Shown here piece by piece: positions 465 through 10,927 of a stretch of DNA of 30,953 bases (within the stretch, counting starts at the first letter, position 1; the number at the start of each line of letters is the position of its first letter). The notes under the pieces were generated by a model. It saw only the letters and a list, made by a program, of their open reading frames with translations, did not search any database and was not told where the DNA came from. This stretch comes from a virus: positions 1 to 30,953 of the IMG/VR virus record IMGVR_UViG_3300048839_000337, one strand, 5' to 3'. The position numbers were made by a program, and so were the translations under genes.

Positions 465-555
465 TGGCGGAGAGAGTGGGATTCGAACCCACGTAAGTAC
501 ATGATACTTAACGGGATTTCGAGTCCCGCGCCTTCAGCCACTCGGCCATCTCTCC
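465..555 (-). tRNA. tRNA-Ser (anticodon CGA)
   Basis: Read on the minus strand, GGAGAGA (555-549) pairs with TCTCTCC, followed by discriminator G and an encoded CCA (467-465). The D-arm, a 5-bp anticodon stem CGGGA/TCCCG with loop CTCGAAA (anticodon CGA, reading UCG codons) and a T-arm GTGGG-TTCGAAT-CCCAC are all present. A long variable arm with stem AAGTA/TACTT is typical of class II serine tRNAs. No mismatches are seen in the helices. The 3' end faces left, towards the HNH remnant, so an element inserted at the usual tRNA 3' end would lie to the left and not be the prophage on the right. Confidence 0.95.
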
Positions 556-1337: not shown

Positions 1338-2459
1338 CTAGTCGCGCGCTGGGCTGGTGAGGTTGTTGCTGCGATCCGGCGACGTGAATGCGTTGTCTCG
1401 GTTCGCCGGAAGGTCGAATGCGGTGGTGCGGTCAGGAGATGAGAACGCCTGCTCGCGGTCGTCGCTGCTGAAAGCCTGGGTGCGTGCGGCCGGCGTGAAG
1501 GCGTGCGCGCGGGTGCCGCTGCTGAAAGCCAGGCCGCGCTCGGGGCTGATGTAGACACGCGGCGATGGGACATAGGTACCGCCGACGTTGATCTGTGCGC
1601 CAAGCCCTGCGGCCACCGCGGCGCCGACGCCGGCCTCGATGATCGTGGCCGTGATGACGCCGGCCGCCAGACCGGTCGCCGCAGCCGACCCGACTCCGCA
1701 TGCGATTGCCGTCTGCAGCGCGATCGAAGCGGCGAGGCCAGTCGCCTCTCCGGCGGCGACCCCGGCCGCGATGGAGGTGGCCGACCCGACCGTGATGGAC
1801 GCCGCAGCACCGGTGGCGGCGGCCGAGCCGACTCCGCATGCGATTGCCGTCTGCAGCGCGATCGAAGCGGCGAGGCCAGTCGCCTCTCCGGCGGCGACCC
1901 CGGCCGCGATGGAGGTGGCCGACCCGACCGTGATGGACGCCGCAGCACCGGTGGCGGCGGCCGAGCCGACCTGCCCGGCGATGACGGTAGAGACGGCGAT
2001 GTCTGCCGCAGATCCGGCGGCGACTGCAACCCCGACGCCGGCCGAGATGGAGATGCCCGTCGAGATGCTTGCGGCGAGGCCGGCGGCGACCGCCGCGCCG
2101 ATGCCGGCAGCGACAAGCGTGCCCGTCGTAAACGCCGCACTGACGACGACGTTCTTGAATGTCGCCGTGGCGGTGTCGTGGATCGTGTAGCCGAACTCGT
2201 AGGACGTGTCCGGGTCCAGATTGGCGGCCGCCACCGCCATGTCCAGCGTGCCCGGCTCGGTGTACTCCTGGCTGCCGTAGCTGCCCGCCGGCAGAGCCGC
2301 GCCCGTGCCGTCCAGGCCCGCGGCGATATAGCCCGCACCAGTTGCGTTGTCGGCCCAGTTCGTGGTGCCCGACGGCTGGACGGCCCAGTACAGGACTACG
2401 CTGGACCCGCCAGCTTCGCCGTAGCCGGCTGATCCGTAGGGGGCGGTGCCGTAGGTCAC
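1338..2459 (-). CDS. repeat-built phage fibre/appendage protein
   Basis: 373 aa, GTG start at 2459 directly after the tailspike stop. Three parts are visible. Residues 1-110 form a phage beta-domain (YWAVQPSGTTNWADN, then a strand pattern ending FTTGTL). Residues about 113-290 are eight degenerate 22-24-residue units rich in Ala and Gly, of the type IxxGVGxAxAxGxAAxIxxx. Two 46-residue unit pairs are identical because the DNA is a perfect tandem duplication. Residues about 300-373 are 9-10-residue repeats of the type RxxAFSSPx. Similar short Arg-containing repeats are, as I recall, common in the protein encoded just before fibre-tail adaptors. A shaft-like appendage is likely. The unit count probably varies between strains. 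One Cys recurs per duplicated unit (IACGVG). Confidence 0.75.
   Translation of the reverse strand: MTYGTAPYGSAGYGEAGGSSVVLYWAVQPSGTTNWADNATGAGYIAAGLDGTGAALPAGSYGSQEYTEPGTLDMAVAAANLDPDTSYEFGYTIHDTATATFKNVVVSAAFTTGTLVAAGIGAAVAAGLAASISTGISISAGVGVAVAAGSAADIAVSTVIAGQVGSAAATGAAASITVGSATSIAAGVAAGEATGLAASIALQTAIACGVGSAAATGAAASITVGSATSIAAGVAAGEATGLAASIALQTAIACGVGSAAATGLAAGVITATIIEAGVGAAVAAGLGAQINVGGTYVPSPRVYISPERGLAFSSGTRAHAFTPAARTQAFSSDDREQAFSSPDRTTAFDLPANRDNAFTSPDRSNNLTSPARD
1691..1966. repeat. perfect 138-bp tandem duplication in the fibre gene
   Basis: Copy 1 is 1691-1828 and copy 2 is 1829-1966; I see no difference between them by eye. The unit is 46 codons, so the reading frame is kept. A third, diverged partial copy starts at 1967. 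The identity shows a recent slippage or unequal-recombination event; assembly collapse or expansion at this place is also possible. Confidence 0.9.
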
Positions 2460-8046: not shown

Positions 8047-8577
8047 TCACGGCGCTGGCGCGCGGTTGCGGCTGGTGGTCTGGCCGTAGTAGTAGCCGAT
8101 GAGGCCACCCAGGATCAGCCCCACGATGCCGTTGGCGATGGCCGCGCGCACGTCCTCGCTGAACGGCGCGCCGAACAGGCCGACGACGGCGCCGACGACC
8201 ATGTAGACCAGCGGCAGCAGCCCGACGGCCACCACGAAGCTGGGCGAACGCCATACGGGCTCGTGACTGGCCACCGCGGCGGCGTCGGCCTTGCGCGCCC
8301 CTTCGATCCCGCCGCCGTCGGCCGGCGCCAGCTCGAACCAGCGCGCTTCGACTGCCTTGGTAGCCGCCGCCAGCTGCACCGGGTCGGCCTTGATTGCCTC
8401 CACAGCGGCCTGGGCGTTGACGCTGCCGGTGGCCTTGGTCACGATGTCTAGCACCGCCCCGGCCGCCGCCACGTTGCGCTCGGCGACCTCACTGCCGGGC
8501 TTGAAGATCTGCGCCAGGCGCGGGATTGCTTCGATCACGGACGGCAGCAGGGCGCCGACGATTGCGGGTATGGGCAT
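8047..8577 (-). CDS. internally initiated holin-like protein (nested in the endolysin frame)
   Basis: 176 aa read from an ATG at 8577 in the same frame as the endolysin. A perfect AGGAGG lies 5 bases upstream (8583-8588), which is far better than the signal of the full-length GTG start. The product is a complete holin_3TM-like protein with the family's usual starting sequence MPIPAIVGALLP. I infer that the fused ORF yields both a full-length membrane-tethered lysin and a free holin-like protein. What is seen is the SD-ATG; translation from it is inference. Confidence 0.65.
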   Translation of the reverse strand: MPIPAIVGALLPSVIEAIPRLAQIFKPGSEVAERNVAAAGAVLDIVTKATGSVNAQAAVEAIKADPVQLAAATKAVEARWFELAPADGGGIEGARKADAAAVASHEPVWRSPSFVVAVGLLPLVYMVVGAVVGLFGAPFSEDVRAAIANGIVGLILGGLIGYYYGQTTSRNRAPAP

Positions 8578-9195
8578 GCCGCCCTCCTGTGAGTACGCCG
8601 GGTCGCCGGCAGGCTCTGGTGCTGGCGCGGTCGGGGTGTCGATTGCAGCCAGCACGGCCTTCGCGCGCTCAAGCCGGCGGCGCCGGTCCTCGATGCCGTT
8701 GGTCCCGCCGTTGACTGCGCGCGTGACGGCCTCGTGGTCGTCGCGGTCGGCCAGCGCGTTGATGTTGCGCATCTCCCAGTAGTCGCACGCCGACAGCACG
8801 GCCCACTTGGCCTGCTCGAGCAGCTCAGGTGCGGCCACGAAGTCAGGCGCGTCAATCCCGTGTTGCCGCAGCCGGTCGCGCAGCGCGCCGTAGTTGTAGC
8901 GCCCGGTGGTCTGCAGCAGCCCGCGGCCCATGTAGCGCCGGCCGTCGCCGGCCTGGGTGTTGCCCAGATCAGCCCGGCCTTCATATCGCTCCTGTGCCGG
9001 CGTCGGGCCCCACACTTCGCGCGAGTGCACCAAAGAGCCGCTCTCGTGTCCCACCTGGGCCAGGAAGTGCGCCAGCCGCAGCGGCGTGTCGATCTGGTAC
9101 GCCTCGCACGCTGCGGCCAGATGCGGCGCGTACAGCTCGGCCAAGTCGCCCCGGGCGCCCAGCGCGGATTCGAGCAGCGCCGGCGTGATCCTCAC
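8047..9195 (-). CDS. GH19 endolysin fused in frame to a holin-like membrane domain
   Basis: 382 aa, GTG at 9195 overlapping the preceding stop (GTGA). Residues 1-190 are a GH19 chitinase-type muramidase/endolysin: FLAQVGHESGSLVHSRE places the catalytic Glu at 51 with E60 or E72 as candidate partner, and YMGRGLLQTTGRYNY (88-102) is the family's conserved motif. After a Pro/Ala linker (about 190-206), residues 207-382 match the layout of a GTA/3TM-type phage holin: a helical region (MPIPAIVGALLPSVIEAIPR), an amphipathic middle, then two hydrophobic spans (SFVVAVGLLPLVYMVVGAVVG and IANGIVGLILGGLIGYYYG) and a basic tail. These two functions are normally separate genes. The GH19 part would cut host peptidoglycan glycans; the tail could anchor it in the inner membrane. 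No signal peptide is seen. Confidence 0.88.
   Translation of the reverse strand: MRITPALLESALGARGDLAELYAPHLAAACEAYQIDTPLRLAHFLAQVGHESGSLVHSREVWGPTPAQERYEGRADLGNTQAGDGRRYMGRGLLQTTGRYNYGALRDRLRQHGIDAPDFVAAPELLEQAKWAVLSACDYWEMRNINALADRDDHEAVTRAVNGGTNGIEDRRRRLERAKAVLAAIDTPTAPAPEPAGDPAYSQEGGMPIPAIVGALLPSVIEAIPRLAQIFKPGSEVAERNVAAAGAVLDIVTKATGSVNAQAAVEAIKADPVQLAAATKAVEARWFELAPADGGGIEGARKADAAAVASHEPVWRSPSFVVAVGLLPLVYMVVGAVVGLFGAPFSEDVRAAIANGIVGLILGGLIGYYYGQTTSRNRAPAP
8583..8588 (-). promoter_or_regulatory. internal Shine-Dalgarno inside the endolysin gene
   Basis: On the transcript AGGAGG, then GCGGC spacing to ATG at 8577. It is a consensus ribosome binding site in a place where a purely single-protein gene would not need one; it marks the ancestral boundary between the lysin and holin genes. 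Confidence 0.75.
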
Positions 9196-9455
9196 CGCTG
9201 CACCTCTGGCATCGTCGTGAGCTGGCGCAAGATCGAATCGGCGCAGGCGATCTCGAACCGCGTCATGTCGCGCACCGGGTCGACGGCACGCGGCTGGACC
9301 TGGGCGACGCCGATCTCTGGCGTGTATTCACAGGCCCACACCGGCCCGTCGCCCAGGTCCGGGCCGGCGACCAGGCTGACGGTCATCCCGTGCATCTTGG
9401 CGATGCCGTGATGCCCGTTGAATCTCAGCCGGGTGTAGTAGTAGCTGTCAGTCAT
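9192..9455 (-). CDS. small phage protein in the lysis cassette, unknown
   Basis: 87 aa, ATG at 9455 overlapping the upstream stop (ATGA), and its own TGA overlaps the GTG of the endolysin. Sequence MTDSYYYTRLRFNGHHGIAK then GPVWACEYTPEIGVAQVQPR. No membrane span, signal peptide or known motif. The tight coupling on both sides indicates that it is translated. Short soluble proteins at this place in lysis cassettes have no assigned role; a regulator of lysis timing is one possibility. Confidence 0.65.
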   Translation of the reverse strand: MTDSYYYTRLRFNGHHGIAKMHGMTVSLVAGPDLGDGPVWACEYTPEIGVAQVQPRAVDPVRDMTRFEIACADSILRQLTTMPEVQR

Positions 9456-9868
9456 TGCCGCTTCTCCGCCAGCGCCGACAACATCCGCTCAACCGCCGCA
9501 CTCAGCACGCGCGTGCCGCCGTAGCCGGCCAGCAGCAGCAGCAGGCCCAGCATCGGCGCGCTCAGTTCGTAGGTCAGCCCGGCGAGATAGGCCCCGCCGC
9601 CGACAGACACGGACACCGCACCGTCGCGCACCACCTCGGGTCTCCACAAAAACGGCCGCTGTTCGTAGGTTGCGGTCAGGTAACGGCCCAGCGTGGCCGT
9701 GGCCCCGCCCCAGGCGGCGATGAGTGCGCCGACGGCAATCTGCACCCAAGGCAGGCCGATCAAGTCGGGCTGCGTGGCCGCCACCACGCTCCAGGCCACG
9801 CCCCAGCCCATGCCGAGCAGGACGACGGTGACTCGGGCAATGCGGCGCCGGATGTCAGTCCTGAGCAT
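9452..9868 (-). CDS. multi-span membrane protein, holin-like
   Basis: 138 aa from ATG at 9868; a longer frame exists but would overlap the previous gene much more. Four hydrophobic segments at about residues 12-32, 40-60, 82-100 and 103-120, with basic N-terminus (MLRTDIRRRIAR) and charged C-terminus (EKRQ). Size, spans and position between another membrane protein and the endolysin suggest a holin or antiholin acting in the inner membrane. It may belong to the LydA/superfamily III-like group; that assignment is weak. Confidence 0.7.
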   Translation of the reverse strand: MLRTDIRRRIARVTVVLLGMGWGVAWSVVAATQPDLIGLPWVQIAVGALIAAWGGATATLGRYLTATYEQRPFLWRPEVVRDGAVSVSVGGGAYLAGLTYELSAPMLGLLLLLAGYGGTRVLSAAVERMLSALAEKRQ

Positions 9869-10280
9869 GTCTCGGCTCCAGTGCGATGGCGACCGCGACG
9901 ACGCCGATGGCGACGGCACAGATGATGTAGTAGCTGCCGACCAGCACCACGTCGCTGCGGTCGCTGCCGGACGCCACGAACGCGCGCACGCCGGTCAGCC
10001 CGGCCAGCACCGAGTAGGTCAGGACGCAGATGCGGCGCCGCAGCGGGCCGGGGAACGACGGCCAGATCAGCCGGCCGCCGATGTCGCGCCACAGGATGTC
10101 GGCCCACCCCAGCGCGCACAGTGCCAGGATGCCGCCGTTGATGACGTGGCTGACCCAGCCGTCACCGGCAACAGACGAGGCCAGGCTCTGCGGACTCCAG
10201 AGCACCAGCGCTGCCGTCCAGCCCGCCATGGTGAGCGCCAGCATTCTCGCGGCCATGCTGTTCAGCTTGTGGCTGATCAC
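9855..10280 (-). CDS. second multi-span membrane protein of the lysis cassette
   Basis: 141 aa from GTG at 10280, sharing GTGA with the stop of the upstream gene. Four hydrophobic stretches: about 12-30 (MLALTMAGWTAALVLW), 42-60 (VINGGILALCALGWADIL), 82-100 (ICVLTYSVLAGLTGVRAFVA) and 108-130. The 3' end overlaps the next membrane gene by 14 bases. A holin/antiholin pairing with that gene is plausible. Together with the endolysin tail, three membrane proteins sit in one lysis cassette. Confidence 0.7.
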   Translation of the reverse strand: MISHKLNSMAARMLALTMAGWTAALVLWSPQSLASSVAGDGWVSHVINGGILALCALGWADILWRDIGGRLIWPSFPGPLRRRICVLTYSVLAGLTGVRAFVASGSDRSDVVLVGSYYIICAVAIGVVAVAIALEPRHAQD

Positions 10281-10927
10281 GGCCGCTCTCCAGGCTGAAT
10301 CGGCGCGTCCAGAATCTGCAGCGCGCGGCCGGCGGCGATCCACCCCACCGTCTCCATCTGGATGACGGGCGTGCGAACGTCGCTGTCGGCCAGGTCGGCG
10401 TAGCCAGTGGCGGCCAGGTCCGCGAACCACGCCCGCACGGCGGCGGCACGGTTGCGCTGCAGCTCTGTGCCGGCCGGGTCGTCCATGCTCTTGCGCTCCA
10501 GCATCGCGCGCTCGTCGGCGCTGAAGCGCTTGCGGAATGCCCGCAGCGTGATCCACGGCATCACCGGCGGCGGCGTCGGGTTGAGCCTGATGACCCAGGC
10601 ATAGCCGACCCACTTGGCGCGCGGCTCGCCGGGCGTCGTGTCGACGGACAGCAGGCGCGGCGCGATGGGCGTGCTGTTTGGCGCGTCCAGGTTGACGACA
10701 CCCGTGTACCAGCCGTCCTCGTCGAACCCGTAGCCGTGCAGCACGGCGGCCGGCGGCGGCGGAGCGTAGGGATAGACGCGCCAAGCGTAGCGCACCCAGC
10801 GCGCCCGGTCCTCGCCGGGCACCGTCGTGACCGACGAGATCGGCGGCGCGATGGGCGTGGCGTGCGGCGTGTCGGCCGGCACCGGGCCCGCGAACCAGCC
10901 GAGGGAATCGAATGCGTACCACGTCAC
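10277..10927 (-). CDS. phage tail fibre-associated protein with internal duplication
   Basis: 216 aa, GTG at 10927 sharing GTGA with the upstream stop. Residues about 3-58 and 65-120 are copies of one module with a 63-residue period: YAFDSLGWFAGPV and YGFDEDGWYTGVV, then TPIAPP/TPIAPR, VPGEDRARWVRYAW and TPGEPRAKWVGYAW. Such FDxxGxYxG modules occur in phage fibre and fibre-assembly proteins. The C-terminal 90 residues are helical (LRAFRKRFSADERAMLERK) and resemble short tail-fibre assembly or chaperone domains. Role in fibre attachment or assembly inferred from these and from its place after the distal tail gene. Confidence 0.65.
   Translation of the reverse strand: MTWYAFDSLGWFAGPVPADTPHATPIAPPISSVTTVPGEDRARWVRYAWRVYPYAPPPPAAVLHGYGFDEDGWYTGVVNLDAPNSTPIAPRLLSVDTTPGEPRAKWVGYAWVIRLNPTPPPVMPWITLRAFRKRFSADERAMLERKSMDDPAGTELQRNRAAAVRAWFADLAATGYADLADSDVRTPVIQMETVGWIAAGRALQILDAPIQPGERP

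Follow-up and report, generated by a model that had tools for sequence, protein, structure and literature searches.

We find that a single viral gene joins a GH19 endolysin, in one open frame, to a membrane domain of the TeaA holin group, and that the boundary between the two halves holds a ribosome-binding site and ATG that are conserved among its fused relatives. It is probably a two-product lysis gene, from which a lysin-holin anchored in the membrane would be made alongside free holin and would assemble with it. Holin and lysin are separate proteins in most Gram-negative phages, and the enzyme passes through a large hole. The gene lies in the window, the whole 30,953-nucleotide stretch analysed here, which comprises positions 1 to 30,953 of the IMG/VR viral record IMGVR_UViG_3300048839_000337; the terminase, portal, major head and tape measure genes of this record are on the same strand as the fusion gene. 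The features of the lysis region are as follows.

8047–9195, minus strand: lysin-holin fusion gene, 382 residues, GTG start at 9195, single open frame
8641–9195, minus strand: GH19 endolysin domain, residues 1–185 (PHROG profile, PDB match, AF2/Foldseek)
8578–8634, minus strand: Pro/Ala-rich linker, residues 188–206, predicted disordered, containing the internal ribosome site
8583–8588, minus strand: internal Shine-Dalgarno (SD) sequence AGGAGG, 5 nt upstream of the internal ATG
8575–8577, minus strand: internal in-frame ATG, putative free-holin start, opening a 176-residue frame
8047–8577, minus strand: TeaA/phrog_1544-type holin domain (phrog_1544 and hhalign), the predicted free product of 176 residues
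8512–8577, minus strand: helix 1 of the holin domain, hydrophobic and partly amphipathic, directly behind the internal start
8182–8238, minus strand: membrane helix 2, holin residues 114–132 (Kyte-Doolittle 2.6; AF2 helix 112–132)
8095–8151, minus strand: membrane helix 3, holin residues 143–161 (Kyte-Doolittle 1.75; AF2 helix 141–170)
9192–9455, minus strand: upstream gene of 87 residues, overlapping the fusion gene start, conserved in L001 and L002
9452–9919, minus strand: LydA-like second holin candidate, two genes upstream of the fusion gene

All 382 codons of the fusion gene are open, as the first-pass annotation had reported in describing a lysin that reads into a holin-like domain without a stop, and the GTG start shares four nucleotides (GTGA) with the stop of the preceding 87-residue gene. 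The lysin half matches the endolysin family phrog_181 in a profile search (E 2e-62) and the GH19 endolysin of PWe2 (PDB 9ms7; E 2e-48, 48% identity), which has no membrane domain. Its AF2 model has a pLDDT mostly above 90 and superimposes on 9ms7 with a Foldseek TM-score of 0.90. The motifs GHESGSL and MGRGLLQTTGRYNY are intact, and both the fold and the catalytic motif region (HES, GRG..Q.TGR.NY) are those of a GH19 enzyme; the earlier call of a GH19 lysin with intact HES and GRG motifs is thus borne out by the motifs as read, by both database matches and by Foldseek, while Pfam PF00182 stays below its cut-off (19.6 of 25.5 bits). The linker that follows has an AF2 pLDDT below 50 (residues 188–209), and its length and sequence differ between homologues. 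The first hydrophobic segment of the fusion begins only at residue 206, which does not fit the N-terminal signal-arrest-release helix of a SAR endolysin.

The holin domain has three hydrophobic segments, at its residues 1–19, 114–132 and 143–161, of which the first is amphipathic (Kyte-Doolittle 1.6, hydrophobic moment 0.41; AF2 helix 3–24), and a basic C-terminus after membrane helix 3; AF2 models this domain alone with low confidence (pLDDT 65). The family phrog_1544 is matched by 12 of 14 members (E up to 1; best 1e-10), the window's domain alone reaching only E 7.5e-4. A profile of the fused domains aligns in hhalign over 149 columns, that is, across the entire domain (probability 98%, E 2e-13), with a profile of stand-alone relatives that took in TeaA, PB1, BPP-1-type, BA3 and other proteins; TeaA of ICP1 itself belongs to phrog_1544 (E 2e-53). 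These profile comparisons support homology of the fused membrane domain to the group of TeaA, the holin of ICP1. TeaA, which dissipates the proton motive force and can be triggered with DNP, is encoded by a stand-alone gene without a lysin fusion (PMC7182436), and resembles the fused domain in its length, hydrophobic N-terminus and C-terminal membrane helices. Its authors tie it to PF11351 (GTA_holin_3TM) through remote homology (PMC7182436). No fused member matches PF11351 at the Pfam gathering cut-off, and the stand-alone PB1 relative scores 16.0 of 24.8 bits; the earlier description of the domain as GTA/3TM-holin-like therefore holds for a holin-like partner and fails for PF11351, in place of which we find the relation to phrog_1544 and TeaA. 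NCBIfam returns nothing for the holin domain, and Pfam matches to RseC, DsbD, claudin and glycine-zipper families were rejected as sub-threshold and hydrophobic.

A database search for other full-length fusions, the check proposed in the first-pass annotation, yields 22 further distinct genes, every one fused to a lysin in a single frame (23 with that of the window). The relatives were gathered with the whole protein and then with the membrane domain alone as query, most searches using the holin part only; same-contig duplicates were merged, the head type of L035, which runs into a contig end, was left unassigned, and the frameshifted copy L037/L043 (genome G133, contig C159) was excluded. The latter is a GH19-holin fusion in which the holin half is split over two frames just past the GGGGI motif, by either decay or sequence error. 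No GenBank phage record covers 80% of the fusion when queried with the GH19 form or a GH24 form, a class-wide genome search adds no fusion (1 of 369), and a genome search with phrog_1544 gives only two matches (L045 and L046), both in one genome, neither of which reads as a holin-domain frame. Four further long frames (L060, L147, L148 and L149) were rejected as fusions, their N-terminal parts not being lysins, and mycobacteriophage LysA matches running beyond GH19 were taken as Ala/Pro-rich similarity.

Three unrelated types of lysin head precede this membrane domain: GH19, GH24 (PF00959 E 1e-44 in L003) and the lambda-R type (E 6e-27 and 1e-13 to PDB 1am7). On the holin tree, which has few well-supported branches and whose strongly supported ones force only 1–2 changes per head type, head type changes about nine times, no fewer than with shuffled labels (9.3), and the window's holin part is closest to that of the GH24-headed L003 (79% identity). 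Both observations point to repeated exchange, in which lysin heads appear to have been swapped again and again before one and the same membrane domain. The linker is open in every homologue of the fused clade and the frame is open after each swap, for which the simplest reason would be that selection maintains the fused product.

The SD core, defined as GGAG, AGGA, GAGG or AAGG at the right place before the ATG, is present at the boundary in all 22 fused genes measured, compared with 7 of the 103 remaining in-frame AUGs in these genes and with 13.5% of codon positions chosen arbitrarily, and the internal ATG is likewise kept in 22/22; the holin parts share ancestry, so these are not 22 independent events. 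The mean energy of pairing to the anti-SD is −7.6 at the internal start, −6.9 at the ORF starts in use and −3.4 at other AUGs, a difference for which the Mann-Whitney p of 4e-10 overstates independence, since the rows again share ancestry; the weakest internal SDs are those of L016 and L017. The encoded residues at the boundary vary (SQEGGM, GQEHSM, IKERIM, PKESKM, TKEPSM) while the nucleotide core stays. A synonymous-codon shuffle is only modestly beaten (4 of 300) and is a weak measure, as the Gln/Lys-Glu residues encoded there already determine a large part of the SD. In the window itself, AGGAGG stands at 5-base spacing before the natural ATG exactly as first annotated, and the comparative data strongly support the accompanying expectation of two products. 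A conserved in-frame internal SD and start codon also characterizes the two-polypeptide endolysins, whose two products share a stop and which come from Gram-positive phages (PMC9430671); in the window gene the second predicted product is a holin. The survey of that class omitted Gram-negative phages, where such starts were deemed unlikely (PMC9430671).

More distant relatives of the holin domain are stand-alone genes, and the 85 such loci examined show no same-frame lysin among the head types searched for. In 15 BPP-1-type relatives, which share the gene order of the window, the start of the holin-like match falls close to where a lysin frame ends, from 1 nt before that point to 8 nt after it. 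The TeaA-like gene of BPP-1-type phages abuts or overlaps the lysin stop, with a GGAGG inside the lysin end; in a BPP-1-type phage the holin SD lies in the last lysin codons and the holin ATG directly follows the stop. Since the distant relatives are separate genes and several sit directly behind a lysin, the fusion most likely arose by loss of the stop between adjacent lysin and holin genes, the SD being kept in the 3′ end of the lysin. The BPP-1-type phages and BA3, with its amidase and TeaA-like gene, resemble the window in lysin-then-holin order and in having the holin SD in the lysin end, and differ from it in the stop codon between both genes and in a muramidase or amidase rather than a GH19 enzyme. 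The TeaA-like gene of BPP-1-type phages directly behind the muramidase (L050:2009-3133) is annotated as hypothetical and is a good candidate for their holin. PB1 gp52 (L049:2501-3106) and its Pbunavirus relatives are annotated variously as hypothetical, DNA topoisomerase, DNA binding protein or holin; homology to TeaA suggests that this protein is the Pbunavirus holin.

In the two-product reading that we favor, translation from the GTG at 9195 would give a GH19 lysin tied through a disordered linker to a TeaA-type holin, and translation from the internal ATG at 8577, behind an SD as strong as, or stronger than, that of usual starts in the fused clade, would give the free 176-residue holin. The free holin, in excess, would build the inner-membrane lesion, and the fusion would be part of that assembly, its lysin facing the cytoplasm, so that when the holin triggers, the lysin would already be at the lesion and could reach the peptidoglycan there. 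A lysin held at the lesion would tie export and timing together, and the enzyme could not diffuse away. A bolder form of this scheme, a one-gene hole of two kinds of subunit in which helix 1 of the tagged holin, on triggering, carries a folded enzyme through the weakened membrane to the periplasm and lysin types are pluggable, is a tentative idea that we consider doubtful; if true, the holin would itself export the lysin attached to it, and the two ribosome sites would set the ratio.

Both products might instead be made with the long one serving mainly as a timer, its bulky lysin blocking insertion of helix 1 in the manner of an antiholin and the enzyme becoming active only after collapse; this we regard as unlikely. 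The dual start of lambda provides the precedent, long S107 acting as antiholin against the short S105 holin. Helix 1 starts 1–3 residues past the internal Met with few charges, its hydrophobicity is about 1.5–1.9 in nearly all members, and the 20-kDa domain ahead of it has to remain cytoplasmic, so that the fusion, whose N-terminus cannot cross an intact membrane, could slow triggering. With a hydrophobic moment of 0.41, however, helix 1 may in both forms lie at the surface as an amphipathic helix, and timing alone does not account for the preservation of an intact enzyme in three families. A timing role is compatible with a tethered lysin, and the two are not exclusive.

Three further explanations are less likely still. 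If only the full-length fusion were made, the SD and ATG would be relics of a once-separate holin gene; the ancestral arrangement of neighbors does exist, with the SD inside the lysin end, and relics are expected just after fusion. Persistence of the SD core in 22/22 genes, with identity to the window's holin part falling to about 42%, between linkers that are otherwise unalike and encode varying residues, makes this explanation improbable. Cleavage of the fusion by a host protease in the linker, yielding the unlinked lysin and holin of ordinary phages, would suit a predicted disordered, Pro/Ala-rich segment, but the linkers show no conserved cleavage motif and the SD would be superfluous, and we consider such processing very unlikely. 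An assembly error or missed stop that joins two genes has next to no probability: nothing was found in its favor, and the same join recurs in contigs from numerous independent samples as well as in genome contigs that carry three lysin types; we reject it because 22 other distinct genes share the fusion, with the linker open in all.

The neighborhood holds other candidates for lysis functions. The LydA-like protein matches the holin families phrog_6384 (E about 9e-6) and phrog_785 (E about 7e-5), with PF16083 below cut-off (E 0.0075), and is preceded by a multi-helix membrane protein at 9855–10346 on the minus strand; family searches with the 87-residue protein gave no match. The lysis region may thus include more than one holin, or an antiholin, and with a LydA-like holin candidate in the window, the main hole-former may be a protein other than the fused domain. 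Elsewhere in the window, a tRNA-Ser (CGA) gene lies at 465–555 (minus strand), on the border of the viral record; it could be a sign of host DNA or of an attachment site at a prophage end. An Ala/Gly-rich ORF downstream of the tail genes (1338–2459, minus strand), within which two 138-nt copies stand head-to-tail at 1663–1938 with 95% identity, is likely a repetitive fibre protein.

The first-pass annotation called this a new lysis layout, which is too strong, as lysins with C-terminal hairpins and a Clostridium sporogenes fusion are published. The endolysins of Siskin (PMC6498227), M4Lys (PMC7143992), Enc34 ORF39 (PMC8943055) and AP1 LysAP (PMC8879335) likewise place the catalytic domain first and membrane helices last, and the transmembrane domain is required for lysis on expression of M4Lys (PMC7143992) and LysAP (PMC8879335). 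The fusion shares with the Chi-like group (Siskin, M4Lys and Enc34 ORF39) a C-terminal membrane hairpin after the catalytic domain; the group has another catalytic family (PHA02564-type, the lysin half here being GH19) and just a short membrane part, and in the Siskin endolysin the membrane-proximal AUGs lack an SD. The TpeE-family protein of C. sporogenes likewise unites a holin and an endolysin in a natural translational fusion; it has the holin first and the lysin last, belongs to another holin family and, as described in the accessible part of its report, comes with no mention of an internal start (PMC9527704). The gene goes beyond these published cases in its conserved internal holin start, its reversed order and its exchangeable heads; our literature search, itself incomplete, found no description of a lysin-holin gene that combines exchangeable lysins with a conserved internal holin start.

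Such genes keep enzyme and hole-former in one frame, with the enzyme freely swapped and a separate start for the hole-former preserved. They are a natural system for testing whether a lysin on a tether requires a large hole at all, as has been asked of holin-endolysin fusions (PMC9527704). They indicate that endolysin genes in phages with Gram-negative-type lysis can carry in-frame internal starts, give annotators a rule for calling both products, and look like a compact, little-noticed way of bursting the host cell.
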